Shown here one piece after another: positions 5,019-53,824 of a stretch of 64,000 nucleotides of DNA. This DNA is from Sycon ciliatum (Eukaryota > Porifera > Calcarea > Leucosolenida > Sycettidae). Location: assembly GCF_964019385.1 (NCBI RefSeq), contig NC_088653.1:17917389-17981388 (forward strand), written 5' to 3'. Numbering within the stretch: the stretch's first letter is position 1; the number at the start of each line of letters is the position of its first letter. The translations under genes were made by a program, and so were the position numbers. The notes beneath the pieces are model-generated. The model worked only from the letters and a program-made list of their open reading frames with translations, did no database searches and was not told the origin of the DNA.

Positions 5019-8000
5019 AGGAACTGACATGCCCTCTGACTCCTCTGGAGTCCTCTGACTCCTTTGGAACACCCTATGTCTCAATTGCTCCAACCAGTAC
5101 CGTCTGTTTTTAGTGTAAGTTCGTTCAATGTTCGTGGTCTATCGTCCAACACGAAAAGCAACTGCTGGCCGAGGACCTGCGTTGCTATAAAATTCAAATT
5201 TGTTCTCTGCAAGAAACGAAAATTCAAAACGGCTACGACGGAGTTCACGGCGACTACAGGATTGTGTGCCTCTCCTCGACTTGCCGACATTATGGAAACG
5301 GCTTTGCTATACACCACTCGCTCCTCGATAGAGTGTATCGAATCTGGAGCGAGTCGGATAGAGTTGCCGTTCTGCAAATTCGACTGTCAAAAAATAAACT
5401 ATTGTCGCTCGTCAGCGTGTACGCGCCGACGTCGACTAGAGTTGCGCAGGACCAAGACTGCCTAGACGACTTCTACTCCTCACTCAACGCTGCAGTTGCC
5501 AAGGTAAAATCTTCATCTATCTTCCTCGTACTCGGTGACTTCAATGCCAAGCTCGGAACACAAAATAAATCACTCCATCAATGCATTGGGCGATACGGAA
5601 GAGGACGACAGAATTACTCTGGCAAGGTCCTTGCTGACTATTGTGACTCAGCTTCCCTATTCGCCTGCAGCACAGCTTTTCAGCACCCAGCACGGCACTG
5701 CACAACATGGACAGGATGGAGAAAGAATAATTCAAGTGGCGGAGCCCCCATTCCCATCTATAATCAAATAGACTATATCTTGTGTTCCACTCGTCAGCGC
5801 CAGCTCTTCACAGATGCCAGATCTTACGCTGGAACCCTGCTGGACTCGGACCACCGATTGCTCGTGGCACGAATGAAGCTGGACCGGTTGCGTGGTGTGT
5901 GGGGCCCAATAGAGCACGCTAAGAAACAGCGAGTAGGCATGAAAATTGCTGTGGATAGGCTGTCCGATCCACGCATACGGAAGGAATATCAGTCCGCTCT
6001 GGAAAATGATATTACCCAACACTGCAGCTGCAAGCCCGGAACAAAGCTAGCCCCTCAGGAGCTATGGGATCAGGTACATACGACTGTGATGGAAGTGGCC
6101 AGCGCTACCCTGGGAGCATCAACAAGACCGCCAAAAGGAAAATGGATACCTGACCCACAGCTGACGGCTATGGTTCAAGAAAAGCGGAAAATCCGGCTTC
6201 AACTGATGAATACCCCTGATGCAGCAGTAGCAGCACGTCTGAAACTCCACAAAAACCAGTTATCTCATCAAGTTCGCAGGCAAGCCAGAGACAATGCAAG
6301 CAGATTATTGGACGGTAAGGTGGCGGAAATTGAGAACCAGAAAGATGACGCGCGCATGTTCAAAGCTGTGCACCTGCTCCAACGAAAGAAACAACAACCC
6401 ATCACGATAAATGATGCCAAAGGACGACGGCTTTTGAACCCTCAAGACATAGTTGGCGGAATCACGAGTCATTTCCAAGAAATGTTCACTCAGCCTAACA
6501 CTACCATCCAAACAAAAAATACAGAAAAATTTGCAAAAGAAATCACACAGCAGGAAATCACATCAGCAGCAAGGCGCCTTAACAACGGCCGTGCGACCGG
6601 GCCAGACAACATGGCAGGCGAACTTATCAAGTACGGGCCTGCCCCTCTTCACCATGCTCTAGCTCGGATATACAATGCCGCTATTTCCAACAATGAGCCA
6701 CTCTGTATTGGCGACGGGACTCTTATCCCGCTACAAAAACCTGGCAAGGCCAGGGGGCCCCCATCAAACCTGCGACCAATAGTACTGTTGACGGTGTTGC
6801 GCAAGGTGTTGTCGCTTGTAGCATTGTCCCGCGTAAGCAGAAAAATACATAAATACTTATCTCCCACCCAGAGCGGTTTCAGGCCTAACAGAAGCACCTC
6901 GGACGTAATATGGTCTTACCGTTGGGCTATAGCCCGATGCCAACGCCTACAACAGAAGTATGACATTATCGGTATCGACATGTCGAAAGCATTCGATACC
7001 ATCTCGCGTCCGAAACTGATCAATGTTCTTGCGTCATTCCTTGACAACGACGACGTTACACTGATTTCATATCTTCTGCAACACACCACCTTGCAGGTTC
7101 GATTGCCGGGAACGGATGGCATTAAGTTCAAAACCGACAGAGGCACCCCACAGGGGGACTCATTATCTCCTGTGCTATTCATCGTGTATCTAGAAGCGGC
7201 CCTGCGGGACGTGCGAAATATCTTACCGATCCGGCCACAACTCGACATCGACCTGCACCTCCCAACTGACACATCATATGCTGATGATGTTGACTTTCTG
7301 TCATCTAGGGGAGCTGACCTCCAATCATGCCTCCCTGTTATTGGGGACACCTTAAAGCAATGGGATTTGACAGTTAACTCCGCCAAGACAGAATTCACCC
7401 ATATCGAGAGGTTCAGCGACTGCATTGCAGAAGAATGGAGGCTGACCCGGAAGCTGGGATCGCTACTGGGTGACAGGGAAGATGTATCTCGGCGTATGCA
7501 GCTGGCCACAGGTGCGTTTCAACGGCTTTGGGCACTGTGGGTGAGAGGCTCGCAGGTGAGAGAGAACAGACGTGTCAAGCTATACAATGCATTTATCACA
7601 CCAATACTTCTGTACAATTGCTCAACATGGGGAGTCCCAAGCAATGTCATCAAGCGATTGGAAGCATTCCACAGACGTCAATTGAGAACAGTCGTCGGGA
7701 TCAAGTACCCTCAAGTCATCAAAAATAGCGAGCTGTATAAACGCACCAACTCCCAGCCCCTTGGGGAAACCATTGTGAGAGCGAGGTGGCGGCTCTTTGG
7801 CCATGTCCTGAGACTAAACGACGATGTACCAGCACGCGTTATGATGGCAGCATACTTCGAAAACCCAAGTTCCGCTGCCACCTGGCGGGGCCGGCCACGC
7901 ACCACTCTGCCACTGAGTCTGCACCAGGACCTGCAGCGTATCGGGGGGTCGCTCAAGAAACGCGAGGAACTTGAGAACCTCCATGCCATCTCCCAGTCAC

Positions 8001-8461
8001 GACAAGACTGGAAAGACCTATGCAGCAATGTGATAAAAGCGTACATCAAAGCCTAATACTGCTTCCACCTGTGGCAGCTGCATGGCCGTACGGTGTACCA
8101 TAACATAACTCATTGACTAACATATTTTGTGAAAATATTATCCTGTAAAAGAATAGGAATGTAAACAATATACCTGTGAAAACACAACCTTGAATGCTAC
8201 TAACACAACCTGTGACTACAATAATCATGAGATCAACCCCAAAACATTTCTTGCAGTTTACTTTCGTAGAGTTTGCAACTTTGTGTTCCTCAACACAACT
8301 TGCAGCTTTCTTCAAACATATCCTCAACCTTGGTTCTGTCCTAGATTGTGTATACATACATTCATTGTTTCGTCTCATCATTATGGAGCAGCTTATGCGA
8401 AGGCTAGCCAAGCTTGCTTGGCGATGCCAACGCGGAAAAGCCTATAATAAATAATAATAAT
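5019..8461 (+). mobile_element. Near full-length RTE-like non-LTR retrotransposon
   Basis: A 3.44-kb insertion flanked by the perfect 10-bp duplication AAATCTCACG at 5009-5018 and 8462-8471. The leader is very short, one long ORF follows, and the 3' end is an AATAAT-type simple-repeat tail. Single-ORF organisation, APE endonuclease plus RT, short leader and microsatellite-like tail all fit the RTE group. It splits a copy of repeat R. The intact duplication suggests a fairly recent insertion. Confidence 0.85.
5076..8056 (+). pseudogene. APE endonuclease-reverse transcriptase of RTE-like LINE, one frameshift
   Basis: The long frame is open from before 5264 to the stop at 8056. Endonuclease motifs are visible: ICSLQETK just upstream, SVYAPTS, GDFNAKLG (Asp at residue 92 counted from 5264) and LLDSDHRLL (Asp196-His197). 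RT motifs are GTPQGDSLSP near residue 627 and YADD at 672-675. The C-terminus has the GHVLRLNDD...RGRPR tail common in RTE-type proteins. The first endonuclease residues, including FNVRGLSSNT, lie in another frame starting at ATG 5076. The frames meet at a run of four A near 5154, consistent with loss of one base. The rest is intact over 930 codons, so this copy is young but disabled, unless the indel is a sequencing error. Confidence 0.85.
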
Positions 8462-22500: not shown

Positions 22501-25500
22501 ACAGGATACGTATTTTAGGAGACTGTAAAGTTATGTAATGTCCAAATTTCGACGTGAGCAGCAGGTCACTCGCGTTGATTTTTCGACGTGCGAGCCAAAT
22601 AACGCGAGCTGAACTTTCGCGTCGCAGACATCCCGTCGACGCGCAGAAAAACTAAACCTGCAGCCTCTTTTGCCGTCGGACAGGATACGTATTTTAGGAG
22701 ACTGTAAAGTTATGTAATGTGCTCCACAGGCAACCATGCATTCGGCGTCGTCATTGGCTCAACAGGTCAATGTACATGTATTACTACAAAAAGGCCAGAA
22801 AATCCGATTACTGTATTAAAATCAACTAATTTTCGCTGGCGATTTAATTTCGCTGATTTCGCCGCTTGGTATCAACCGGCCAAAGTAAATCGGAGGCCAA
22901 AGTTTGTCGTATAGGCAAATGATGCATGATTGAGCAATGGATGCATGTGAGAGCAAAAATACCGATCGATTTCAAATTTGACGTGAAATGTGGAAACGTT
23001 TTTGCAATACAGTGATGTGGCCAATCAACGGAAAAAGACATTTCCATCAGTTCTTAAAACATGTACGATGAGCTAGGCAAAAAAGCATAAAAGCATAGCG
23101 TAGGGCCCTGAGCTTCCAAGCTCTCTCGTTATTTTGCGGGATAATGCTAATAGCAATGCCAGAAAAACTGTATCATAATGCTACTTGTAATGCTGCTGTT
23201 CCTCTGTAATGCCAGCAATTCACCAGTAGTAAGTATGGAAAAATGGCTTGGTTTGGGCAGTATTGTGCACGCTTCGTAGTTCTGCGTAGACGGCATGGAA
23301 AATTCTAGAAAATCATGATCATAATTTTATGCTGCTATTGCTCCATACAATCCCTTTCAGCTAACTGTCCAGCGAGGAAAGTCTCGAGTGGAGGAGGCCT
23401 CTCGATCTGCTCGCTCATTCGCCTGGCATTCAGTAGCACTTTATCGCCAAGGACTTCAATTCAAAACAGTTTTTCACACTGCGTTTCAAGCCTTTTTCCT
23501 GGTGAACTTGCTGCAAACGTATGAGCTCTGCTGCGCGTGTTCCCTTTGTATGAGGCCCAGAAACAGCTAGTATCTCCGTACTTCGATTGGCTGGATCGAT
23601 GTCGTCCAGGTTCTCCTCGCTATCGCCATCACGACTCTAACTGGACTCGATTTCTTCACCATTTCCGCAAGCAGCAGCTAGCGCAGAAATTTCGCCATCC
23701 CTGAGTGTAGGAGATGGAATCCGGCCGATCAGCTCAAAAACTCTTCGTTGCGACTAGAGGAGTAGCAGGGAATATTCTACCGGAAGCCCTTTGACCTCCC
23801 TGACTGCTGAAACACTTCCTGCCATGACTGCTGCTTCTTCAAACAAGCGAGATTCTCTTTGGTTCCACTTTATTTATTTATTTATTTATTTCTGCACCTC
23901 GTGGCTTCACTGCACTCGAGCGTCCACGCGACACAACTTTTTTTTACAAAACATCATTTTTTCTCAAAAGAGTGATTTTCACCCTAAGCCTGGTTTTCCA
24001 AGAGGTAAAGGCCATTTGAGTATAATGCCACTTTTGCGGAAATGTAGTGTTATAATGCTAGCATAATGCTCGTTGCAAATCGCACACTATAATGCTACTT
24101 ATAATGCTTTGGCTTCATACTTGCTCATGCTTTACGTCGCAGTATGGAACAAAGTGGGTACTATACATTGAAGGAAGTTGGATTCACGGTTCCTATTTAC
24201 CTTCACATAGACGGCCATCACCGTAGAATCCGCTGGTGCATTCACAAGCAAATGATCCATGTGAGTTGAAACACATGGCAATAGCAGGATCTGCACAATT
24301 GTTGAGTGATGCATCCGAGCACTCATCGATATCTGGAATACGAATTCAAACCAAATTGGATTACTGGATAATCTTGATTCAAGAAATGGGGGAATGGATT
24401 TGTACTGCGCATGTTCGTTACCGAGTGCCTGGTCTTTGTTAAGTGGGGGCCTTCAAACATTCAATAGGTGTTATAATAGGTATGTTTAAGAGAGCATGTC
24501 TGAGAAAACCAGAAAAACTGGGCTGGGCCATCTATCTTCATTTCGCTCAAATTTTGCAAGTAGGTCTCCTTTGGGGCCTACAACAACCATGCAAAAGGAC
24601 TCGTTCAATAACTGACGGACACCTTGGAGCTGGGGACCACCTCGAAATGGGCCCTAAATGCGAGAGAATATTGGGTCCAAAAACGAGCGCTGGTACAGCG
24701 TACACGATTGAGCTGAGAAGAAACCACCACCATGCCAACACTACCTCACCTGAGTAGTGTGGTGATATTATAGCACCTTTCTCGGCCTGCATGGGTCTTG
24801 GCACTTAGGCTGCTAGTGACGCTGTGCAGAGCCAGCTGTCCGACATGGTGGGCAAGGGCGTCATTGAGAAGGTGCCTGTCGGCGAAGAATACACTTGGTG
24901 CCACCCACTGGTGGTGGTCCCTAAGAAGAATTCCAGTGAGCCGCGCATCACGATGGACCTGACGGGACTAAATAAATGGGTCAACAGGCCGGCATACCCA
25001 ACCCGAATACCTCGGGAGGTCGTCGCTTCGACCCAATGGGGATGCAGTACTTCACCATCCTAGATTCTGGCCATGGCTACTGGCAGGTACCCCTCGACGA
25101 CGACAGCACCAGGCTCACAACGTTCATGACGCCATGGGGTGCCTACCGTTTCAAGCGGAACGTCATGGGCTTGGTGTCGGCAGGTGACGAACACAACCGG
25201 AGAGGAGACGAAGTGTTCGCCGGGTTTTCGAATCTTCAGAAAGTGGTAGAGGATGTCATCGTGTACGACACTGAGCTTGAGGCGCACACCCAGAGGGTTC
25301 GCAATGTTCTCAAGCTTTGCTGGGCGAACCAAATCACACTGAACCGCCGCAAATTCGTCTTTGCGGCACCCAGAGCATCGTACTGCGGATTCGTGGTGAC
25401 GCCGGACGGCTACTGTCCTGATCGTAGCTTAGTGGAGGATCTACACAACTTTCCAATCCCCACCAACCGCACTGATATCCGATTCTTCTGTAGACTCGTG

Positions 25501-28500
25501 CAGCAGTTTGACGCGTTCACTCCGCGCCTAGCGGAGCTTCTATCCCCGACCCGCTATCTGCTCTCTCCAAAGAATGAGTTCGTCTGGGAGGATCCGCAGC
25601 AGCAGGCATTTACAGCTATACTAGAGGAGCTGGTAAGCCCTCGAGTGTTGGCTACCTTCGACCCAGCACAGCCGCTTCGTCTCGAGACAGCCGCCTCGCA
25701 GCCAAACGGTCTCCGCATGGCACTGTGGCAGCAGCAAGTGGACGGGCGGTGGCGTCTAGTGCAATGTGCTTCACGGCACGTCACTGAGACCGAGGCCAGG
25801 TACTCTGCAACGGAGATTGAACTGCTGGCGGTAGTCTGGGCAGTCCACAAGGCTAGACTGTTCCTGGCCGGTGCTGATTTCGAGCTGATAGTCGATCACA
25901 AGCCGCTCATTCCTATCCTGAATGCTAAGACGCTGGATGAGTTGACGTCTCCACGAATCGGGCGACTGCGGGAGAAGCTGACGCCTTTTCGGTTCGTGGC
26001 TCAGTGGAGACCGGGTGCCGATCACAAGGTCGCAGATTGCCTGTCGAGACACCCAGTAAGTGCACCAGACCCTGACGATGAAGCTGGTTAGGAAGAAATC
26101 GAGCACTGCTCCTGTGTTCTCCGTCAGCTGTTGCAAGAGGACGAGGGAACAGGCCATACAGTCCTCCCCGACCTTGGCATTACGAAGGTGCGGGCGGAGG
26201 GCTCGACGGACCTGGAATACCTCAAGCTACTGAACGCCGTAAATAGCGGCTTTTCGGTGTACAAGGCTGTTCTGGACCTCGATCTGCACCCGTACTGGCA
26301 GGTTCGGCATGATCTGTCGATCGAGGACGGTATAGTGCTGTTGGGCCACCGTATTGTCGTTCCCAGAAGGTTACGCCAGACCACACTGGAGCAACTTCAC
26401 GCTTCTCATCAGGGACAGACCCGCACACTCTGCAGGGCCAGGCAAGCAGTGTACTGGCCCCAGATCTCCAATGACGTTAAGAACGTCGTCCAGACATGCA
26501 GATCCTGCGTCACGCTGCTCCCCTCCCAACCTTCTGAGCCGCTCCTCTCTGGCAGTCGTCCGTCCAGACCGTTCGAAGATGCAGCGGCGGACCTCTTCTC
26601 CTTAGGCGGCTTTGAGTACCTGGTTCTCACCCACAAGTTTTCCGGTTGGCCATTTGTTGGGCGTTGTGGGAGGTCGGCTACCACGTCTGATGTCACCAAA
26701 CATCTCGTTCAGTGGATGTCGGATGTTGGCGTTCCTACCCGCCTGACGACGGATGGTGGGCCGCAATTCAGATCTTCAGCGTTCGTTTCGTTCTGCTCAG
26801 AGTGGAACATTTGCCACGACCCCAGCAGCCCGTGCAATCCTCAGTCAAATGGCGCGGCTGAGGCGGCGTTCAAGGCCATGAAGCACTTGTTAATGAAAAT
26901 CGGCAAAGGAGACGCCTACGGCAGCAGTGCCTTCAGAGAAGGGTTGCTGGAGTGGCGTAACACGCCGGGTGCAGGAGGAGCAAGCCCGGCCCAGCTGCTG
27001 TTTGGAAGGCCAACGAGGACCAAGGTTCCCACACTCCCTGTAAATCTGCAGCAGTACGCTACCCACAGCCGCAGCGCTCCCCAGCAGGTCTCATCCCGGC
27101 TTGGCAAACCTCTGCCACCTCTGCACGTAGTCGATAAGGTATGGATCCAGAACCCGTCTTCAAAACGCTGGGGTATGGAAGGAACGGTCACAAAATGCAC
27201 AAGAAGAGGACGGAGCTACACAGTGCAGTCGGTAAGGGGGTCCAGCTTCTGGCGGAACAGACGGTTCCTCGGGCCACGTGCATAGATTGACTGGGAATGC
27301 TTCTCCTGCTTTTTCCTTGTTGGTTGTGCGCTACGCTGTGATTTTCGAATTTCAGTTTCAGGATTTTCTTTGTGTTAGTGCTCCAAAGTCGCACTTAAGC
27401 CAAGGGGGCACGTGGTGATATTATAGCACCTTTACCTGCTTGGGCCTTGGCACTCAGGCTGCTAGTGCTACTGTTCGCATCCTAGGCCCTGCACTGCTGG
27501 ACCTCTGGCGCGTTGCGCATAACACATTCACTTATCACCTTTCAAGCCGCCTTTCCAGCCAGCTTACCTTTAAATGCCATTGCGTTTCACTGATGATTCA
27601 ATCTCATCTTTCGAAGAATTGGTCTGCCTTGAGCAGGGCACAACAAGTAGTTTTCACATCACCACCACATAGAGCCATGGCTACATCCAGGAAATTAATG
27701 GCCATCATCTCCAAATATCACTAAATTGCATCGCTAAAATAGGTAAATTTCAAGGACCATAGCGGGAACCATTTATGACGTCTATTTTTCTGAACCATGC
27801 ACTGCAGGACAGTGGACTATCTCCACTACCACCCGGGACATGTCTCGTAAAAAGTGTTCCACGTTCTCTGGGAATAAACAAATTTGAATATTTTCACTTC
27901 ACCACATTCCAACACTGCCAATTTCCTACCTCACGACGGAAAGCGCCTCCTCAAGCTCCAACACCAGGTACCGCTCCAGACGCCAGCACGCCAAACACTG
28001 CAGCGTAGTCACCTCTACCGAGTCTGACCAGAAATTTGAACTGACAACCCTTGTCACTCCAAACAACAACCATTTCCTTCCCTGAACCACTCGAATTTCA
28101 CTAGCAGCAAAGCTTTGCAGAAGTTCCAAAAATATTGAACAAATCTAGATTTGTGCGATCGAAGCACGATATATTTGCGTCCTGAAACTGGCCGTGCGCC
28201 GACCACCGCGTGATCTAGCAGATCGACGGATTTGATCGACAATCAAGATCAGAATCAAATCTAGACGATCAGATTGATCAGCAACATGATTTTTACGATG
28301 CTATGATGTATGATGGCATGCTGCTTGAGTGAACCATGAAGAGGCACGATGCCCTGGACTTCACGATATGGGCCATATATGGGATCTAGCTGCAACTTGT
28401 TTTCCAGGCAACTCATTCGACATTTCGCAATTTTCGGCCACGTAGTCACCACGGGTTTGAGCACGTGCTTTTCAGGTGCACTCCGGAGAGATCGAACTTC

Positions 28501-31500: not shown

Positions 31501-34500
31501 GTTATTATTCCACGGATCTAAGAAGGAAGGAACGTTCCAGAATGCTGCACTGGCAACAGGCGGCCTGCATGTGCGCGGCCCCTGCAGTCGGTCCAGCTGC
31601 CGGCCTTGCAGTGCTGAAAAGAATGTGCAGTACAGCATGTCACATAGTGGCGCAGCCTGGACAAATAGGCGCTGGGAAGTCCTAGTTATGTGCTCACCTA
31701 CACCACGATGCACCAATCTTCTGAGCTACTTTGGCAACAACTTTGTCCACTTGAGACTCCCATGGGCTGAGCCAGTTGTTGAGGGCTGCATCAAGGTGGA
31801 CGGCAATGACCGCTGATGGCAAGGCAATCCATGACACACAGTCACTAGGGCATCGTCAACATGGCGCTGAGGCTGGATCGATAAAATCAACCTTTAGGCT
31901 GCCGCTGGGTTGACAACGAGGCCGCTGTCTCGAAGCTAGTCAGTCAGCCTGGTCACCGCCATTGACGAACCAGCCGCCACCGCCAGCAGTGGCGGTAGGT
32001 TGTGACAAGTGTGGTGCAATATTGTCAGCAAATTCAGTACTCAGGATAAGATGAGTGACAAAGGGAACGTTGTGTTTGATAATATTGAAGTGAACAGGGA
32101 TGATCACAAACCCTGCGCGTACTCTACCGTGAGTTACAAGAAAATTCCCGACTGGACGACGAGCAAACACCAACCTGCTACATCCAACCAGGCAGATACT
32201 ATTACGATAGCTGCCAAACCAGGTCAATGCCGACCTACTGCATAATGTCAATGTCAAACAGATCCTGCAGGAGAAGACTGGGGTGTTGGCGTCCAGTCAC
32301 TGAGCGTACAGACACCAGTCACATTTCCTGCGTCTTTTGCAGCATACAGGATAGACTCATCACTGTAAAGTCCACTACTTCGTGATTTTTATTTGTAGAA
32401 TACATGACAGGCGTATTCAGTGTGCCTCGCAGGACTGCGAGATGCTGCAGAAGACCAGGTTCGACCTTTCTGGACCGCCATTCACCGACGGTGGGCTACA
32501 CGATGCTGGAGGAACTAGATTCCAGTGAAAACCCAAGATTCCTTTGCTCCTGGACGCTCCGACGTGTTGTGATATCTGCCAGGTGCGCAGTAACTAGTAT
32601 TTTCATCGCTATAGCGAGGACGACGCCGATCGGCAAACTCTCGCTCACAGCCATCACCAGCCTCTCAAAACCATCACTTGGCATCCCCCAGAGGTATAGG
32701 AGAAAGCCAAAACAACAAACAAAAGCTAAGGACGATGGAAAGAGAGCATGTCAAAAAGAAGACGAACAGTATGAAGTTCAAATGGGTTTGAACACTCGTA
32801 CCACCAACTATACCACTTTCAATAAATCGTGACGCCATTTTGTTTTAACATGAATATCGCGGGTTTCAGGACGCAAATATAATCGTGCTTCGATCGCACA
32901 AATCTAGATTTGTTCAATATTTTTGGAACTTCTGCAAAGCTCTGCTGCTAGTGAAATTCGAGTGGTTCAGGGAAGGAAATGGTTATTGTTTGGAGTGACA
33001 AGGGTTGTCAGTTCAAATTTCTTGTCAGACTCAGTAGAGGTGACCACGCTGCAGTGTTTGGCGTGCTGGCGTCTAGAGCGGTACCTGGTGTTGGAGCTTG
33101 AGGAGGCGCTTTCCGTCGTGGGGTAGGAAATTGGTAGTGTTGCAATGTGGTGAAGTGAAAATATTCAAATTTGTTTATTCCCAGAGAACGTGGAACACTT
33201 TTTACGAGTCCTGTCCTGGGTGGTAGTGGAGATAGTCCACTGTCCTGCAGTGCATGGTTCAGAAAAATAGACTTCATAAATGGTTCCCACTATGGCCCTT
33301 GAAATTTGGCTATTTTAGCGATGCAATTAGCGATATTTGGAGATGATGGCCATTGCTTTCCTGGATGTAGCCATGGCTCTATGTGGCGGTGATGTGAAGA
33401 CTACTCAGGTGACGTAATGTCGGCAAGGTGGTGGTTTGTTCTCAGCTCAATCGTGTACGCTGTACCAGCCCTCGTTTTTGGACCCAATATTCTCTCGTAT
33501 TTAGGGCCCATTTCGAGGTGTTCCCCAGTTCCAAGCCAAGCAACGGTGTCCGTCAGTTATGGAACGAGTCCTTTTGCATGGTGGTTGTAGACCACAAAGG
33601 AGATTTACTTGCGAAATTTGAGCGACATCGGAGAGATAGCCCAGCCCAGCTTTTCTGGTTTTCTCAGACATGCTCTCTTAATAATACAGTTGATTGTTCC
33701 AACGTTAAAAGTCTCTGTAAGTTTGTATCCTTGGCGATGGTTTGGCCTGGAGAGCAGCATATAAAAGGTGCTTTTCAGGCACAATCTTCTTCATCCTACT
33801 CAAGCTCAACTGATGAGGGGTGAACTCCCCGAAACGCTGTGTATTGAGCAGGGAGTGGTGCTTTCTTGCAGGTTTGCTGAGTGAAAGGTGCGACGTGCTC
33901 CTTGTGCGCTAAGGATGGCAGTCGTGAGCCAGTCAAGTGTCAAGTTCGGCAAGAAGCATGTGTTCCTAGTTGGAACAACCAACTTCATAAGTTAAGTTAG
34001 TATGTATAATAATGAAGTTGAACACACCACTGCAGCTGTACTTATGGTTGATAAAATAATATGGTGGTAAATACACACCTGGCAATATGGCGGTAAATAC
34101 ACGCCTGCCCACACACGCTCTCTAGGCTGCTATGTCTTCTCCAGCCTGCTATGTTGGATACCACCAACCATGCATCGACTAGGCGCCAGGCGCGAACTGA
34201 TGGTGGTGGTGGTGAGAAGGAGAGCTCTGTGCCAGAACTTTGCAGCCTAGATAGTGTGTGTGGGCAGGCGTGTATTTACCGCCGTATTGCCAGGTGTGTC
34301 TTTACCACCATATTATTTTATCAACCATAAGTACAGCTGCAGTGGTGTCTTCAACTTGATTCTCCCGAGTCAAGCTTCGTATGAAGACATCCTGATTCCA
34401 AGAAGAAGATTGCCTGATGAGTCCAGCAGGGACGAAACGTAGGTCTACGTCGCAATAGAGCTATATCGTTGCTGTGTCGTCTTCTATGTGCCATGCGCTA

Positions 34501-43369: not shown

Positions 43370-44965
43370 AACACAGACCCACTCACACAAACATACGCTC
43401 ATCACAGAACAAACCACTGCAGTGACAGCCACAGCCAGGCTTGTGGCACTCTTGTCTCCAGATTGTAGACAAAAACTCCAGCAAAAACAACACATCATAG
43501 GGTGACAGCGTTGTGCAAGGAGGATCATACAGAAAAGTACTACAATCCACAGATCACCCGCACATATCACTCCTTGCAAAATTTATAACCTATGCTGTAC
43601 CCTGACCTATACTGTAGCAGCAATATTGAGAAATTTATCAGACAGAGTAACCCAGCACTGTTACTATCATGACTCCGGTGAGAAATCATACAAAGCTCCT
43701 CATTGGGAGGGAGGGTTGGAAACCAGCTGGCAATGCAAGGAAACCAAAGGATGCGGAACTGCGGCGCACCAGTACGCCCAATACACAGTGTTTCTGATAA
43801 TTCGAAAACATCAGTTGAGCTTTAGTACGCGGAGGAAGATTGTGCCTGCAGAGCACCACTTTTACAGTCCATTCATTGGAAAATGGTACGCAAACATTTT
43901 GGTGTCTCCCGCGCATAGTTGTAGATATCGTGAAAACAACAGTACATCCTGCATTGTGTGAACTGTGCAATTACTCCTTGCCAAATTTGAGGCCAGGTTA
44001 TACAAAATCAGGACAGGTATGCCGTGGCAAAATGTACGGAAAAGCAGATCCCAAACCCAGATTTTTGAGATTAAAAGTGCGTTTTTATCCTCAATTCGGC
44101 GCAAATCGGACTTTCAAAAGCCTGCTGGACTGTTTCCGATGAATGGACGGTAGTGCACTCCAGATACAAGGAAATAACCAGTCCCAATTCATCAGCCCGC
44201 TACTCCGGCTCCCCGCTGTATTGTCATATCTGTCCCCTTGGTTCTGTCATCATTCATCACCCCTACAAGTTCATGTACGTTCTCTGCTGCACTATGCACT
44301 TAAGTATAGAACATAAAGAAGGATACAAACTTGCAGTGACTCTCCGCTTCCTTTTCGGCAAACAACTCGTGAACACCAGATAGCAGCTAGTGTGATGCCT
44401 GTCGTGAGTCAGCCAAATGTCAAATCAAGTAGGCGGAAAGGGACAGGGTCAAGCGTGGGGAGCTTTAATGATCACACTAAATTTTCCTAAAATCCGAACC
44501 TCAAGGGATGTTTGGTTTGCTGCCCTCGTTCATTCCACTATGTTACACTAATACAGAATGATGAGACTAGGGCCCACAACCATACACACAGTACTCCGAC
44601 GGAAAAATGTACTGGCCTTGTTGTACCGTGCGAGAGACACTCACAATTACACTTAAGACTTCCGCGGTATTTTTGTGGCCACTAAATCTGGTAGAGTTAT
44701 ATACTGCTCAATTAATCTAAACAACTTAGGCGGAGAATTGGCTATTCCATACGTATCATCATATATATCATCAAAAGCTTGGGAGGCTTACGTGTCGTAG
44801 TGGGCCAAATATCATGCTGGGTAGCTAACTAGAACAGTGATTGAAAACAGAGGACTTGTAGATGTACTGGGTGTAAGGAATTATCGTTAGGTTATAATTG
44901 TTATTATTTTGCACTACGAGCGTGATTGTGGGCTCAAAAAATTATATATACTTCAGTAATTATAA
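43370..44965. other. Interval without recognised gene
   Basis: Several short frames but none with a domain I recognise. The string CGTGAGTCAGCCAAATGTCAA near 44402 resembles sequence near 33920, just downstream of hammerhead A, which suggests a shared dispersed repeat. Confidence 0.35.
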
Positions 44966-45140
44966 TTATATTTCGCTCCTGCTCTTGTAGCAGTTGAGCA
45001 CTCTTGCGTGGGGTAGTGCCTTTGCTGTTTGCATTATGCAGAGCTCACTGACTAGTCAGTTTGAGCACTCTGGCAAGGTACGTTCGGGCCTGATTGGAAA
45101 TTTGTATTTCCATTGCTATCAGGTTCGGCCTCATTTTCTC

Positions 45141-45194
45141 TGTGCTGCGCTGATGAGTTCAAAAAGAACGAAACAGCATGCTGTCCGCAGATTG
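45141..45194 (+). ncRNA. Hammerhead ribozyme C
   Basis: CTGATGA at 45150-45156. Stem II is GTTC/GAAC with an A5 loop and GAAA is at 45170-45173. Stem III is CAG/CTG closing a CATG loop, or CAGC/GCTG. UC at 45184-45185 is the cleavage site. Stem I is CTGCG (45145-45149) with CGCAG (45186-45190). All core positions are intact. Confidence 0.92.
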
Positions 45195-45368
45195 AGTATT
45201 TCGCTCCTGCTCTTGTAGCAGTTGAGCACTCTTGCGTGGGGTAGTGCCTTTGCTGTTTGCATTATGCAGAGCTCACTGACTAGTCAGTTTGAGCACTCTG
45301 GCAAGGTACGTTCGGGCCTGATTGGAAATTTTTATTTCCATTGCTATCAGGTTCGGCCTCATTTTCTC

Positions 45369-45422
45369 TGTGCTGCGCTGATGAGTTCAAAAAGAACGAA
45401 ACAGCATGCTGTCCGCAGATTG
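45369..45422 (+). ncRNA. Hammerhead ribozyme D
   Basis: Identical to ribozyme C in every core and stem position, exactly 228 bp downstream, with predicted cleavage after C 45413. Cleavage at C and D would release a 228-nt RNA. Confidence 0.92.
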
Positions 45423-45485
45423 ATTATAATTATATATATATGCGCCTCCTTTGCACCATGGCTGGTAGCTCGGCCTATTTAGCTC

Positions 45486-45538
45486 GTAGCTGTACTGATG
45501 AGGCCTTTATGGCCGAAACAGCTTGCTGTCTACAGCAT
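45486..45538 (+). ncRNA. Hammerhead ribozyme E
   Basis: CTGATGA at 45495-45501. Stem II is GGCC/GGCC with loop TTTAT and GAAA is at 45515-45518. Stem III is CAGC/GCTG and UC is at 45529-45530. Stem I is GCTGTA (45489-45494) with TACAGC (45531-45536), six perfect pairs. Stems differ from C and D but pairing is kept, which indicates selection for the fold rather than recent copying. Confidence 0.92.
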
Positions 45539-45540
45539 TG

Positions 45541-45615
45541 GGTATATATATATATATATATACTCAATCTGCTATATCTGTGTGTGTGTGTGTGTGTCCG
45601 TGTGTGCGCGCGCGC

Positions 45616-45646
<31 letters not shown>

Positions 45647-45655
45647 CGTGCGTGT
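45541..45655. repeat. TA and TG/CG microsatellites
   Basis: A TA tract at about 45542-45562, then TGTG/CGCG tracts at 45580-45655. These directly follow ribozyme E and may mark the insertion end of the retrozyme array. Confidence 0.85.
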
Positions 45656-46069
45656 GAGGGAGGGAGGTTCACTGCACGTCAAAGCAACGAACAGAAATTC
45701 TCAACACGAAATTGACAGGCTAACTGCCCTGTCGTAGTTAATAACCAAGTAATTGACAGGGAGGTTTTGGCACGTGTCAGACAAACGCACACGCGTGAGT
45801 GCAGTTTAGTCCTACCTGGTGAACAAGCTACTACTCGTCTGGCTCATTCAGTACAGGCAGTGGAGGCAATCCATAGGCTCTGAAACTGTGAAACAGTGTT
45901 GGTTTAGTGACACCTATCTGTCACGCAGCAGCGTAGTAGCCCCATGGTCTGCGCGAGAAACGGCGGCTGTTCAATACGGTGCATTTCCAGTGTCCCCTGT
46001 AATGAGAGATGAATGCGTAGAATATAATAGGATCTCCAGTGCTATCTCCGGTGCTAACTCGGTGCTACG

Positions 46070-46230
46070 CAACCTTGAACCTTCCAAGTTGGAAGGCTGT
46101 TGGTTTGCGCACTGGAGATGTGTTAGAGCTAGGTCTCAGGTCGCTGAATGTCTCAGTAGCCTGTCAGTTTTGTGCCCTGTTATCGACGGTTCTGATTCTT
46201 TATCATCTTGTTACATTCGTGGGTAGTTGC
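46070..46230 (+). repeat. Dispersed repeat, copy of 38950-39110
   Basis: Shares CCTTCCAAGTTGGAAGG, TTGGTTTGC and TGAATGTCTCAGT in order with the copy at 38950. No coding capacity. Confidence 0.5.
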
Positions 46231-46767
46231 TGCATAACTCGTTCTCATGGGTTTCTTCTCTTGGTTTTGCATCTCATGTGATGAATGTTATAGCATAGCT
46301 TTGTGCAAGAGTGTCTGCGGGCTAAACCTAGTCAACACTGGATCGTGTCGAGTACTCCAGTAAATGTACTCTTGCGTCGGCTAGGGAGATGGTTAGTGAC
46401 TGTATTCAATAAGATATCGTTGGTGGTATGCGCATTCGTTCTTCTCTTTACCAAAGACCACTTCAATGGCAAACGTGAACTGCAGATGAGGGAGCACGGA
46501 GACCATGAATAGTGGGGTTGAGACTTCGTGAGCTCGGCTCGTCCGTTGTCTCGATTTCATGGCCGCCCTCGAAAGAGTGCTCAATGCACCGGGGTGCAGA
46601 GCTTCATACAAAAAGAATAGAATGGGATACGGAGCTTGGGTTGGCTGTGACTCAGAGTTTCTGGTGTACTAAAGGCGCACAACAATTCGGTCTTGCGGAA
46701 GAAGCAGAAAGATGATCAACAGAGAACAGAGAAAAGATGAAACTGCAGGGATAAAGTTAACTGCCCC

Positions 46768-47208
46768 ATGCATGGAAACTGCCAGATCAAGTCAATCGTA
46801 TACAAGGCCAGCGTGACAGAAACCGGAAAAGACGAGCGAAAAGAGTACATCGGCCTAACGGAAATGACGTTCAAGAAGGGATACGACGGACACATGACGT
46901 CAATGAGGCATGAGCGAAAGGAGAAGAGTACCGAGTTGTCCAAGCACATCTGGGACATGAAGCGCAAGAATGCTGGGGACAGCATCAGTTGGTCAGTTGT
47001 CGCTCAAGCACCTGCATGCTCCAATGCCACCAAGCGCTGCCCTCTCTGTCTGCGTGAGAAGCTGGAGATCATGCATGCTGACAGAAGGGTGAACATCAAC
47101 AAGCGATCGGAGCTAGTGGCCAAGTGCAGACATGGGAACAAATTCTACCTATCTAACTTCACACCTCCAGTTACATTAGCCAGGATTACACCTGATATCT
47201 GGCGCTGA
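46768..47208 (+). CDS. Penelope-like GIY-YIG endonuclease domain (truncated)
   Basis: An open frame of 146 codons. It reads CQIKSIVYKASVTETGK then KEYIGLTEMTFKKGYDGHM, the VYKA...YIGLTE form of GIY-YIG with the following basic patch and His. SKHIWDMKRKNAG and SISWSVV follow, then KRCPLCLREKLEIM and NKRSELVAKCRHGNKF, which are the typical C-terminus of Penelope-like proteins with the linked Cys pair. The RT that should precede it is absent. The family uses this nuclease to nick target DNA. The frame itself is intact. Confidence 0.85.
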   Translation: MHGNCQIKSIVYKASVTETGKDERKEYIGLTEMTFKKGYDGHMTSMRHERKEKSTELSKHIWDMKRKNAGDSISWSVVAQAPACSNATKRCPLCLREKLEIMHADRRVNINKRSELVAKCRHGNKFYLSNFTPPVTLARITPDIWR

Positions 47209-47325
47209 TCTTGCACGTACATGCATAGAACCACCGCTTGACCTTATTTGCGCTTAAATTCTCTGATACCACTAGCACCTTACCACACTATATCAAGAAC
47301 ATTCATTGAGTTTTTGTAATCATTG

Positions 47326-47366
47326 CTGTCTGATGATCGCCACAGTACAGGCGTGACTCTGAGTCA
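47326..47366 (+). ncRNA. Possible decayed hammerhead at Penelope 3' end
   Basis: CTGATGA at about 47329 is followed by TCGCC/GGCG as a possible stem II. The GAAA position reads GTGA, then GACT/AGTC could form stem III before a UC. Stem I does not pair well. I treat this as a relic of the hammerhead expected in Penelope terminal repeats. Confidence 0.3.
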
Positions 47367-47419
47367 CCGCCAACCCAAGCTCCGTATCCCATTCTATTCT
47401 TTTTGGGTTTTTTTGACAG

Positions 47420-50412: not shown

Positions 50413-50782
50413 ATGCAGAGTGCCACTTGTTGCCGGTGCAACGGCAATGGCACCTGCGTTCGGTGTGAATGCAAGAAGGAGGGCCGCGAGTGTCAGAATT
50501 GTCTCCCGGGAAAAAAAGCAGATGCCGAAACAACAGCCCCTCGACATCCCAACCGTCACCCGTACCCGTAGCAGTGACAGATACAAGCACATGTACCGAC
50601 AACCAACCGTCATCCTCAGTAGCCACCCCGGAAGAGCTGGTAGCTGCTGCACTCACTGAGAAGCCCTGCTCACGGAATGCCGAAACCCGACATCCACAGG
50701 ACCACCAACGGCACCATGCTCACAACCTGGTCAGGTAGCTGCCACCACCGCCAGTGACGTCAATAGGGTTGACCTGCATGCC
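50413..50782 (+). pseudogene. N-terminal Cys-rich region of the RT element, frameshifted
   Basis: From ATG 50413 the frame reads CCRCNGNGTCVRCECKKEGR and CQNCLPGKK, a dense set of Cys pairs that probably binds zinc. At the seven-A run 50511-50517 the sensible reading moves to another frame (KKSRCRNNSPSTSQ), consistent with loss of one A. A second shift between about 50659 and 50738 is needed to join the main frame, which is open from about 50659 and whose first ATG is 50783. Confidence 0.65.
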
Positions 50783-53700
50783 ATGCCTGTGTCGAGCTCT
50801 CAACAACTAGCATGGGACATACTGGACCAGCAGCATGCAGCAAGCACCAGTGCCACAGATCGAGTTGACAGTAATGACGACACCCTAGGGCATGATGCAG
50901 AGTTGCTGGCCAACCTAGCACAAAGCCAATCTGTTACTGAGGAGCCCCAAGCACCGGATCCAGCCCAGCTCCCCCCATATCTGGAAGCAAATTGCAACAT
51001 CACAGTTGGGACCCACGATTCAAACTCGTCTGCACAAATTGTAGATGCTGCATATGAAGAAGTGGTGCATTTTAGGCCTAACCTACTTTTCCTCCCTTCC
51101 GGGTCAGTCGGATCAAAGTTTGTGAAGCTCCTTGCAACACTCTACAAACAGTTTGGTGACAAATGTGCAGGTGAAGGCAAGTCTCTGAAAGCAGCTGCAG
51201 TGGCCACTCAGCTGCTCCTGCAATGTCCGCACCGCTCTGCAACCAGACAGGAGCACATCACCTGTCTACAGCGCCGCATGCTACTCTGGGAGGAAGGCAA
51301 CATCAACGAACTGATGATAGAAGCCCGGACTATCCAATCTCTAGTGCAATCTTCCACAGCCTTCCAAGGCAAGGCTCAGCCGCAGGACCAAGCTCGTACC
51401 TTTGCCAACCTCATCACCACAGGCAAAACCAGTGCTGCAATCCGCACGTTGTCTGAAGACCAGAAGGGCGGAGTACACTCCGTGGGCACCACCATCAATG
51501 GCCAGACAGTTCTGGACATTCTCAAGAGCAAACACCCTCCCGCGGCACCAGCAAATGCGACGGCGATGATTACAGGAGATGTCCCTCCGTCACCGCATCC
51601 AGTTCTCTACTCCAGCATCACCCGGGAGGCCATACGCGAGGCAGCCCTCCACACACAAGGTGCTGCAGGACCCTCTGGACTAGACGCTGCGTCGTGGCGC
51701 AGAATGTGCACAGCTTTTCACGGAGCATCTGATGACCTCTGCGATTCACTGGCCAGCTGTGCCCGCCGCATCGCCTCGTCCTATGTTGACCCCACAGCAT
51801 TGGAAGCTTTCTTGGCCAGCCGCCTCATACCACTAGATAAACAACCGGGTGTCAGACCGATTGGGATCGGAGAAGTGGCCCGTCGCATCATCGGGAAAGC
51901 CATCCTGCGATGCGCCTCATCTTCAATACAGAAGTCAGCTGGCTGCCTACAGCTATGTGCGGGTCAAGAGTGTGGCATAGAAGCAGCAATACATGCTATG
52001 CAAACAGCATTTCAGGAAAACGAGGCGGAAGGCGTTCTGTTTGCAGATGCGTCAAACGCATTTAACTCCCTTAACCGTGCTGTCTCACTGCACAATATCC
52101 AGCACACCTGCCCCACCATTGCTCCGGCACTGATCAACAGCTACCGCAGCCCGACTCGGCTGTTTGTGGATGGTGAATGTCTCCTGTCTTGTGAAGGCAC
52201 CACGCAGGGAGATCCACTAGCCATGGCTATGTATGCCCTGGCAACCGTTCCTCTCATCCAGGAAGTGTCTCAGAGCGGAGCACTCCAGTCGTGGTATGCA
52301 GACGACTCCACTGCCGCTTCCACCATTCGAAAGCTGCATCACTGGTGGTCACTGCTTAAGCAACGAGGCCCAGCATATGGGTACTTCCCCAATGATGCCA
52401 AGTCGGTTCTTGTTGTGAAGCCGGAGCATCTTCAGGAAGCAGAATCCCTGTTTGCTGACACGGCAGTCCAGATTCGCACGGATGGCTGGCGGCATCTCGG
52501 TGCAGTACTTGGGTCTCCCGAATTCTGCAAGCAATATGTCACAGAGAAGGTAGAGACATGGGCGCTAGAGGTTGGACGACTGGCTGACTTCGCCACCACT
52601 CAGCCACAAGCGGCATACGCTGCTTTTATTCATGGCCTCCGCCACAAGTGGTCGTTTGTGGCCCGGACGGTCCCAGGCATCAGCGGACTGCTAGACCCGC
52701 TGGAGCACTCCATCCGACAGCGGTTCATCCCTGCTCTAACCAGTCGCCCCGCACCTGGTGACGAAGAGCGCGCCATACTGTCCCTCCCGTGTCGAGAAGG
52801 TGGTCTTGGTCTCATTGACCCGAGGTCTTTGACGGACCAATACAATATGTCTGTCGCTGTCACCAACATCCTCGTGAGCCGGATACTGGACCAAGACACC
52901 AACATGGACGAAGTGCCCACCACCATCCATGCTGCCAAGCTAACTGCAGCAGCAGCAACCAGGAGAGCCTCTCGAGACCAAGCCAGTCAGCTCCTGGCCA
53001 CATGTGATGTGCCCACCCAGCGAACCCTGGGGATGGCGGCCGAGAAAGGAGCGTCCAACTGGCTCACTTGCCGGCCCCTGAAGCAGTTCGGGTTTGTCCT
53101 CCACAAAGGCGCCTTCAGAGACGCACTCTGTCTGCGGTTCGGCTGGGTCCCTCACCGCCTGCCATCCACTTGTGTGTGTGGCAAGGCATTTAACACCAGC
53201 CATGCTCTTTCGTGCCCAACTGGTGGATACCCGGCTCTCCGTCATAACACGATCCGCGACCTGACAGCCGACCTACTGCGTGAAGTGGCAACGGATGTGA
53301 AGATAGAACCTCCTCTGCAGCCCCTGGAAGGTGAAAGGCTCCGGTATCGCTCTGCCATCTTGGAAGATGGCGCTCGTCTTGATGTGGCGGCATCTGGTGT
53401 CTGGGGAAGTCGTTTTGAGCGCACGTTCTGTGATGTTCGGGTTTTTAACCCTCATGCGCGCTCGAACACTTCCTCAACTCCCGCGTCCACCTATGCCAAG
53501 CACGTACAGCAGAAGAGAAGGGCCTACGAAGAACGCGTCAGGGAGGTGGAGCATGCTTCCTTTCTCCCACTGGTATTCAGTGCATCTGGTGGGTGCGGCA
53601 AGGTAGCCCACGCTTTCCTGAAGCGTCTTGTCCATATGGTTTCGGAGAAGCGGCATGAACCCTACTCCTCCGTCATGTCCTGGATCCGCTCTCTTGTCTC

Positions 53701-53824
53701 CTTTGCTTTGGTTCGATCCTGCAACATGAGCCTCCGTGGTCACCGTGCTTCTCCCTACCGCAGTCGTTTGGATGCTGCCACTCCTGTTGTGCTGGCAGTC
53801 AACGACTGTCAGTTGCGTGACTGA
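50783..53824 (+). CDS. Reverse transcriptase with CCHC knuckle and putative restriction-like endonuclease
   Basis: An intact 1013-codon frame. RT motifs: GPSGLDAASWRRM near residue 296, RPIGIGEVARRIIGKAI near 357, FADASNAFNSLNR with Asp at 422, TTQGDPLAMAMY with TQGD at 474-477, and WYADDS at 504-509. After the thumb comes a C-x-C-x7-H-x3-C knuckle (residues 797-811), then RHNTIRDL at 820, DGARLDV at 862-868 and CDVRVFN at 883-889. Acidic residues before a hydrophobic strand and the preceding knuckle recall the restriction-like endonuclease of R2-type non-LTR elements. No APE domain is present. The clade is not certain. The ATG at 50783 is the first in this frame, but upstream coding sequence suggests the native protein started earlier. 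Confidence 0.8.
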   Translation: MPVSSSQQLAWDILDQQHAASTSATDRVDSNDDTLGHDAELLANLAQSQSVTEEPQAPDPAQLPPYLEANCNITVGTHDSNSSAQIVDAAYEEVVHFRPNLLFLPSGSVGSKFVKLLATLYKQFGDKCAGEGKSLKAAAVATQLLLQCPHRSATRQEHITCLQRRMLLWEEGNINELMIEARTIQSLVQSSTAFQGKAQPQDQARTFANLITTGKTSAAIRTLSEDQKGGVHSVGTTINGQTVLDILKSKHPPAAPANATAMITGDVPPSPHPVLYSSITREAIREAALHTQGAAGPSGLDAASWRRMCTAFHGASDDLCDSLASCARRIASSYVDPTALEAFLASRLIPLDKQPGVRPIGIGEVARRIIGKAILRCASSSIQKSAGCLQLCAGQECGIEAAIHAMQTAFQENEAEGVLFADASNAFNSLNRAVSLHNIQHTCPTIAPALINSYRSPTRLFVDGECLLSCEGTTQGDPLAMAMYALATVPLIQEVSQSGALQSWYADDSTAASTIRKLHHWWSLLKQRGPAYGYFPNDAKSVLVVKPEHLQEAESLFADTAVQIRTDGWRHLGAVLGSPEFCKQYVTEKVETWALEVGRLADFATTQPQAAYAAFIHGLRHKWSFVARTVPGISGLLDPLEHSIRQRFIPALTSRPAPGDEERAILSLPCREGGLGLIDPRSLTDQYNMSVAVTNILVSRILDQDTNMDEVPTTIHAAKLTAAAATRRASRDQASQLLATCDVPTQRTLGMAAEKGASNWLTCRPLKQFGFVLHKGAFRDALCLRFGWVPHRLPSTCVCGKAFNTSHALSCPTGGYPALRHNTIRDLTADLLREVATDVKIEPPLQPLEGERLRYRSAILEDGARLDVAASGVWGSRFERTFCDVRVFNPHARSNTSSTPASTYAKHVQQKRRAYEERVREVEHASFLPLVFSASGGCGKVAHAFLKRLVHMVSEKRHEPYSSVMSWIRSLVSFALVRSCNMSLRGHRASPYRSRLDAATPVVLAVNDCQLRD

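Follow-up and report, generated by a model that had tools for sequence, protein, structure and literature searches.

Architecture of the locus

The window, that is, the whole 64,000-nucleotide stretch of Sycon ciliatum DNA analyzed here, contains two tandem 228-bp units at 44971-45426 (Table 1). TRF placed the repeat at 44969-45427 with a period of 228, 2.0 copies and 99% matches, and both TRF and the hammerhead core pattern agreed with the initial annotation of this DNA, in which tandem 228-bp repeats, each with a complete hammerhead, had been described. We refer to this unit as R228. Exact copies of TTATAATTATAT were found on both sides of the array, and therefore the inserted piece corresponds to 44972-45423; on its 3' side the insertion ends at position 45423, at which reverse transcription would have started. 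The GC content of R228 was 47.8%, every reading frame contained a stop in each lap, and the longest open stretch comprised 75 codons. When folded as a circle, the unit gave -74.0 kcal/mol, compared with -63.5 ± 4.8 kcal/mol for shuffled sequences (z -2.2), and is thus modestly more stable than the shuffles.

A second element, carrying ribozyme E, begins 20 bases downstream of the R228 array. The initial annotation had described E as a third, diverged ribozyme. E as a diverged third copy was ruled out; it is the 3' end of a separate family with a 237-bp unit, which we call R237. When E was used as the genome query, at least 51 scored matches were obtained from 1,472 candidate places (40 candidates scored), and complete E copies formed the end of the 237-bp unit, itself also tandem, with up to three complete ribozyme units seen per locus. 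The single R237 unit measured had a GC content of 52.7%. The TA tract was also considered as a part of the element and rejected, as it is the insertion target.

The window is rich in mobile elements elsewhere (5114-8056, 24976-27285 and 50660-53824), where the ORFs are of the LINE-type EN-RT kind, of the RT/RNase H plus integrase kind found in LTR elements, and a further RT.

Table 1. Features of the R228, R237 and Penelope-like element insertions in the window.
Feature	Position	Strand	Basis or remark
Left target-site duplication, TTATAATTATAT	44960..44971	.	Exact 12-bp match to 45424-45435
First 228-bp unit	44971..45198	+	Search reference; 96-99% in full-length dispersed matches listed
R228 retrozyme insertion (452 bp in two laps, from unit position 2 to 225)	44972..45423	+	TRF, junction analysis
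Hairpin 1, R228 unit 1 (GCTC-stem-TT-GAGC-ACTCT)	44975..45004	+	Genome pattern match, fold
Hairpin 2, R228 unit 1	45043..45071	+	
Type I hammerhead ribozyme C, predicted cleavage after C45185	45145..45190	+	Rfam lax scan, core pattern
Second R228 unit; target sequence from 45424 onward	45199..45426	+	
Hairpin 1, R228 unit 2	45203..45232	+	
Hairpin 2, R228 unit 2	45271..45299	+	
Type I hammerhead ribozyme D, predicted cleavage after C45413	45373..45418	+	Rfam lax scan, core pattern
Right target-site duplication, TTATAATTATAT	45424..45435	.	Exact 12-bp match to 44960-44971
5'-truncated R237 copy ending CATTGGG, in TA tract	45444..45542	+	
Type I hammerhead ribozyme E, predicted cleavage after C45530	45489..45536	+	Rfam lax scan, core pattern
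10-bp R228 3'-end stub (GCAGATTGAG), opposite orientation, other side of TA tract	45563..45572	-	
Hairpin (R228-type) in inverted pLTR fragment of Penelope-like element	46575..46602	-	
Penelope-like ORF fragment, GIY-YIG-type C-terminus	46741..47208	+	51% identity over 146 aa to C-terminus of 749-codon frame
3' end of Penelope-like element, ending TTCTATTCTTTTTG, with degenerate hammerhead region that lacks the GAAAC part	47330..47405	+	Corresponding end in L076-L078

Hammerhead ribozymes

A strict hammerhead core pattern matched four sites in the window (34414, 45150, 45378 and 45495), all on the + strand. Shuffled windows contained a mean of 0.01 matches and none of 100 shuffles reached four, and the core matches are not due to chance. 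The ribozymes C and D share the same 46-nt sequence with a short stem III, as had been claimed for their core and stems, and the predicted cleavage sites of all three ribozymes coincide with those originally proposed. The claim that E keeps every pairing with other bases holds for stems I and II (GCTGTA/TACAGC and GGCC/GGCC), while the stem III pairs are the same as in C and D.

At gathering scores, the scan of the window with the Rfam covariance models yielded no match. At a lax threshold, C, D and E were the three best matches within 43500-46500, with two scores for Hammerhead_HH9 (29.3 bits, E-value 1.4e-4; 26.8 bits, E-value 8.8e-4) and one for Hammerhead_3 (25.9 bits, E-value 0.016), none of which reaches its curated threshold (52, 52 and 48.5 bits, respectively). 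As judged from its sequence, each R228 unit has a type I hammerhead with an intact core. The retrozyme reading implied further genomic copies with a conserved core, and these were found: a joint R228/R237 core pattern had 2,253 exact matches in the genome and none in the reversed control.

Genomic copies share a 3' end and AT-rich targets

The 538-Mb assembly was searched with R228, which gave at least 116 scored matches among 386 candidate places (40 candidates scored). The host is an animal, with 55 exon-level Wnt matches; the Wnt family was found in none of 14 prokaryote controls. We examined the window (its region being locus L046) and 37 further loci around R228 copies (L009-L045), and parsed 55 R228 array segments. 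In two of these, the 3' end lies beyond the sequence retrieved. Among the remaining 53, 50 (local duplicates included) have their 3' end at unit position 225-226, with some latitude where element and target have bases in common. This end lies 10-11 nt past the cleavage site (...GATTGAG|TA or one base less). The three exceptions were a segment of L038 (506-1486), which ended at position 98, and fragments of 27 and 29 bp, which ended at 122 and 163.

The 5' ends, by contrast with the fixed 3' end, were spread over unit positions 25 to 227 in the 46 of 55 segments retained for the junction analysis (of the nine dropped, seven were shorter than 60 or had an unexpected 3' end, and two lay near the edge of the locus). 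The recurrent 5' points at 39, 53 and 65 belonged to flanks ending in TA-type sequence or to locally duplicated loci. Array sizes ranged from under one to about nine units. In R237, CATTGGG was followed by the next unit or, as a rule, by an AT-rich tract, as read off the sequences without a model; the two families are alike in the placement of the 3' end, the targets and the hairpin described below.

For the analysis of target-site duplications, nine of the 46 arrays were removed as duplicates, including some that merely shared a TA flank, and 20 of the remaining 37 were informative in that the target contained C or G. Thirteen of these 20 showed duplications of 9-15 bp (nearly pure TA in three of the 13), a range reached by 2.4% of 380 mispaired flanks, and the other seven showed duplications of 2-8 bp. 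The contrast was weaker when all 46 arrays were used with TA tracts included, as duplications of at least 10 bp were then found in 59% of arrays and 18% of mispairs. The AT content of the 20-bp flanks of the 37 arrays was 82-84%, compared with 58.5% at a distance of 40-60 bp.

Neighboring insertions within 80 bp of each other were arranged tail-to-tail in nine, head-to-head in six and in the same direction in seven of 22 cases, a count that omits nine overlapping loci (L046-L054). In seven of the nine tail-to-tail pairs, the two insertions were separated by 8-39 bp of AT-dominated sequence, and four of these seven paired R228 with R237. This layout is suggestive of priming at nicks in either strand of an AT tract.

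One locus (L049/L059) contained a chimera, in which an R228 piece (positions 65-207) adjoins an R237 array through a short sequence common to both (microhomology), inside one TA-bounded insertion. A jump of the enzyme between two RNAs, both then in one complex, would explain this structure; a deletion between neighbors, perhaps a later one, would explain it too. We also observed very short stubs (AGATTGAG or similar) between TA runs in L037, L022 and L067. One stub form, of a kind related to the stub in the window, had 11 exact cases in the genome and none in the reversed control. These short stubs look like aborted insertions.

A conserved hairpin next to the 3' end

The motif TTGAGCACTCT or a near-match to it occurs twice per unit in both R228 and R237. 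In R228, it belongs to two hairpins of the form GCTC-stem-TT-GAGC-ACTCT at unit positions 5-34 and 73-101, which are 68 nt apart. In R237, the outer stem is retained by the first hairpin, whose inner stem is irregular, and is missing from the second. On their 3' side, the insertions stop 6 nt short of hairpin 1 in R228 (GATTGAG|TATTTC-GCTC), and the spacing is likewise 6 nt in R237 (CATTGGG|TATCAC-GCTC).

The pattern GCTC-N8..24-TTGAGCACTCT gave 9,471 matches in the genome and 11 when reversed, a count in which nested matches are included twice; R228 hairpin 1 is such a case because GCTC recurs inside it. The inner stem covaries. In a set of 42 hand-picked variants collapsed to 28 dissimilar ones, the mean number of inner pairs was 3.54, compared with 1.48 ± 0.21 after the 3' halves had been exchanged, and none of 10,000 exchanges gave a value as high. 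At least three inner pairs were present in 19 of the 28 variants and fewer in nine, three of which had none. An unpicked set of 58 hairpins gave 3.10 pairs, compared with 1.09. Five of six folded examples adopted the same shape, and R237 hairpin 1 was looser. In addition, 808 of the 1,817 matches closed by T-A have GTA at a spacing of exactly 4 nt upstream of GCTC, where about 28 were expected. The hairpin copies are related, so that the match counts are not independent events.

This UU-bulged GCUC/GAGC hairpin followed by ACUCU appears, on the basis of sequence from one genome, to be newly described. In the viral_contigs collection, at least 120 stretches matched the hairpin pattern, with one match each in the 80 listed, as chance would give in a collection of that size. 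A full-text literature search for GAGCACTCT had no PLE or retrozyme paper among the matches listed, as judged by title or start of the abstract. On the same basis, and with subscription papers outside the scope, no paper on such a hairpin was among those listed for retrozymes, hammerheads and PLEs.

Penelope-like elements carry the same arrangement

Downstream of the retrozyme insertions, the window contains a fragment of a Penelope-like element (PLE), a copy that is truncated on the 5' side and preceded by an inverted pLTR piece (46575-47405). The sequence at 46609-46645 is the reverse complement of 47369-47405, and the PLE stops at 47405, a point at which the inverted fragment continues towards the hairpin at 46575-46602. 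The ORF fragment had at least 150 scored matches in the genome among 2,593 candidates (150 scored). No Pfam, NCBIfam or PHROGs profile identified the fragment, and the PLE ORF, including a 749-codon frame found at locus L211, had no convincing match in Pfam, NCBIfam, PHROGs or PDB. The identity of these elements was assigned from motifs and layout. The ORF contains FDIVDFYPSI, YRDD and a GIY-YIG-type tail, which we take to be PLE motifs, and these, together with the hammerhead/pLTR layout and the tandem form, suggest that the ORF elements are Penelope-like. Hammerheads and pLTRs are present in tandem or inverted copies, as in the 2475-bp tandem of L211 and the inverted pLTR piece of the window.

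L211 is a tandem PLE with a period of 2475 bp and the same kind of ORF as the window fragment. Its features are ordered as follows: the hammerhead, hairpin 1, hairpin 2 (62 nt on) and the first ATG of the 749-codon frame, which opens within hairpin 1. The layouts of L211 and R228 agree, and so the order of hammerhead, start site, hairpin and hairpin is common to the PLE and the retrozyme. The distance from the cleavage site to the start is longer in PLEs than in retrozymes.

We examined 16 PLE 3' regions, 12 of which contained the CTGATGA motif (L080 is one of these and is without the GAAAC part). In two lineages, PLE copies stop 4-6 nt short of the hairpin. In one of them, CCTTTTG is the last sequence of L076, L077 and L078, and L075 continues from this point with TATGAA and the hairpin. 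In the other, the 52% lineage, L089 terminates 4-5 nt ahead of the hairpin that is present in L090 and L211. Common stop points were also found within the 70% and 66% lineages (L079, L080, L081 and L084; L082 and L083), and no hairpins of their own were seen in the sampled 3' regions. In the four copies of the 58% lineage (L085-L088), neither CTGATGA nor a hairpin was found in the stretch fetched; there, the ORF is followed by long GT/GA microsatellites in place of hammerhead and hairpin. The longer copies with the hairpin resemble the optional 3' tail of published PLEs, which is given as 30-40 bp (PMC11167929) and as 31 bp in Adineta (PMC3846280) in the parts of these papers available.

Peptide patterns for the PLE ORF revealed no relatives in the viral and prokaryote collections. 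A degenerate DNA pattern matched 1 and 16 stretches in these collections, one of which (L232, JAAEPJ010000379.1) encodes a relative. L232 contains two head-to-head PLE-type ORFs that are 48-52% identical to that of L211, and neither the hairpin nor CTGATGA was found in it. It is filed as a bacterial metagenome bin and is probably host contamination.

Comparison with known retrozymes and PLEs

Metazoan non-LTR retrozymes are described as small tandem units with a type I hammerhead and RNAs of about 170-400 nt, dispersed and without LTRs, with duplications of more than 4 bp when present and with coral units of about 225 and 245 bp (PMC7229834, available part). R228 and R237 are similar in their 228- and 237-bp units, occurrence as dimers to multimers, dispersal and type I hammerheads, and R228 also in its 9-15 bp duplications. 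The animal retrozyme reading of the initial annotation is thus supported by tandem type I hammerhead units, dispersed copies, insertion duplications and an animal genome. In contrast, the fixed 3' end and the hairpin found here are unmentioned in the available part of that account. Plant LTR retrozymes are likewise non-autonomous elements with hammerheads and circular RNA (PMC4918200, in part), the last of which would be shared by R228 and R237. However, they have type III hammerheads, LTRs, a PBS and a PPT, form circles of 600-800 nt, make 4-bp duplications and are likely Gypsy-dependent (PMC7229834, available part). As far as checked by description, R228 and R237 appear to be new metazoan retrozymes.

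The available text on an anole PLE reports that it begins reverse transcription at an internal position of the RNA, by a stem-loop, and that AT-rich DNA is cut on both strands, which is the pattern that the model for R228 needs; an "AC-rich stem loop" is also named there (PMC11167929). The elements of this genome resemble published PLEs, as far as the accounts consulted extend, in the hammerhead, the stem-loop by the start of reverse transcription, AT-rich targets, tandem or inverted copies and the optional tail; unlike PLEs, the R228 and R237 retrozymes are non-coding. PLEs were named a strong candidate partner of animal retrozymes in 2020 (PMC7229834), and a review of the same year described the retrozyme repeats, in the part available, as lacking a conserved motif that reveals the mobilizing autonomous element (PMC7761336). 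The partnership was therefore suspected in print without a motif, and the shared start-site hairpin is what is new.

A model for retrozyme mobilization

We propose that R228 and R237 are non-coding retrozymes that borrow the reverse transcriptase and endonuclease of PLEs, a reading to which we assign a probability of roughly 0.8. Tandem copies would first be transcribed, and the hammerheads, whose cores are intact, would cut the RNA into 228-nt units. By analogy with other animal retrozymes, for which circles exist and tRNA ligase can close them (PMC7229834, available part), the units would then be closed into circles. The conservation and position of the hairpins suggest that a PLE protein would recognize one or both GCUC-stem-UU-GAGC-ACUCU hairpins. 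After a nick at an AT-rich site, reverse transcription would begin 6 nt before hairpin 1, at G|UA; the common 3' ends show this start site, and the PLE protein is the presumed enzyme. The enzyme would go around the circle for a variable distance, a step that appears in the arrays as a pattern of under one to about nine near-identical units with a variable 5' end. Repair would finally leave the duplications, which are seen at 9-15 bp in 13 of the 20 informative arrays.

The fixed 3' ends, variable 5' ends, AT-rich flanks, duplications and alike units fit target-primed reverse transcription rolling around one RNA circle. A more specific reading, towards which we lean with less assurance, is that the retrozymes are SINE-like parasites of PLEs, that both share a module of the hammerhead, the G|UA start and one or two UU-bulged hairpins, and that the arrays arise by target-primed reverse transcription running several laps around one circle. 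The covarying hairpin at a set distance from the start, with the same placement in two PLE lineages, is consistent with this module.

It is also conceivable, and in our view unlikely, that the PLE enzyme starts internally on linear multi-unit transcripts and copies several units, with no circles involved. An internal start is known for a PLE (PMC11167929, in the part available), and long transcripts would yield multi-unit arrays. Such copying predicts that differences between units are inherited, but the arrays are mostly uniform. In 27 multi-unit arrays with 102 units (five locally duplicated loci left out and three columns masked at each end), units within an array differed at 1.30 sites per pair, compared with 3.83 when permuted (lowest of 2000 permutations, 3.05). 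In nine of the 27 arrays, variants that are rare elsewhere (at most 5%) were fixed in all of the units, as exemplified by a one-base deletion in five of five units of an L037 array and four changes in three of three units of an L044 array; L030 and one L038 array have most of their fixed variants in common. Copying of one circular template for several laps directly explains this uniformity. A few arrays do have mixed units, as the linear template would predict: two L035 units differ at seven sites, and those of L040 differ at 6.7 on average, a heterogeneity that could stem from either age or a mixed template.

We consider it quite unlikely that a LINE, another kind of non-LTR element, mobilizes the retrozymes and that the likeness of the PLE hairpin reflects common descent only. 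LINE-type reverse transcriptases do occur in the window, and Cervera and de la Pena left LINEs open as partners (PMC7229834, available part), but the 3' end, the hairpin spacing and the AT-rich targets match the PLEs of this genome. Finally, it is very improbable that R228 is ordinary satellite DNA, with single insertions expanded and homogenized by unequal crossing-over and the hammerhead as a relic: local duplication is apparent at L019, L020, L021, L036 and L039 and homogenization could yield the likeness within arrays, but the loci are dispersed, whole arrays lie between duplications in 13 of the 20 informative cases, the 3' end is common and the 5' end free, private mutations stay unspread in arrays such as L040, the joint core pattern has its 2,253 exact matches, and later homogenization accounts for neither the fixed 3' end nor the duplications.

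In the cited papers, as far as they were available, the enzyme that moves animal retrozymes was left open, and the hairpin makes a PLE role testable. If PLEs mobilize R228 and R237, the fixed start and the covarying hairpin shared with PLEs would provide a concrete target for in vitro tests of the mobilizing enzyme, and the hairpin would offer a way to seek retrozyme partners in other genomes. Should the module recur in other phyla, it would represent a general PLE recognition element. The arrays would also provide evidence, from the genome, for reverse transcription that rolls around a small RNA circle at the insertion site.

Other hammerhead motifs in the window

The remaining core match belongs to an additional type I hammerhead at 34408-34456 (CTGATGAGTCCAGCAGGGACGAAACGTAGGTCTACGTC), in which stem III is long. 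A 26-bp repeat (34058-34107) lies nearby, as does its inverted copy (34265-34314), and the hammerhead is possibly part of another mobile element. We also observed a hammerhead-like motif at 33805-33850 (CTGATGAGGGG...CCCCGAAACGCTGTGTATTGAG), in which GUA seems to replace GUC at the cleavage site.
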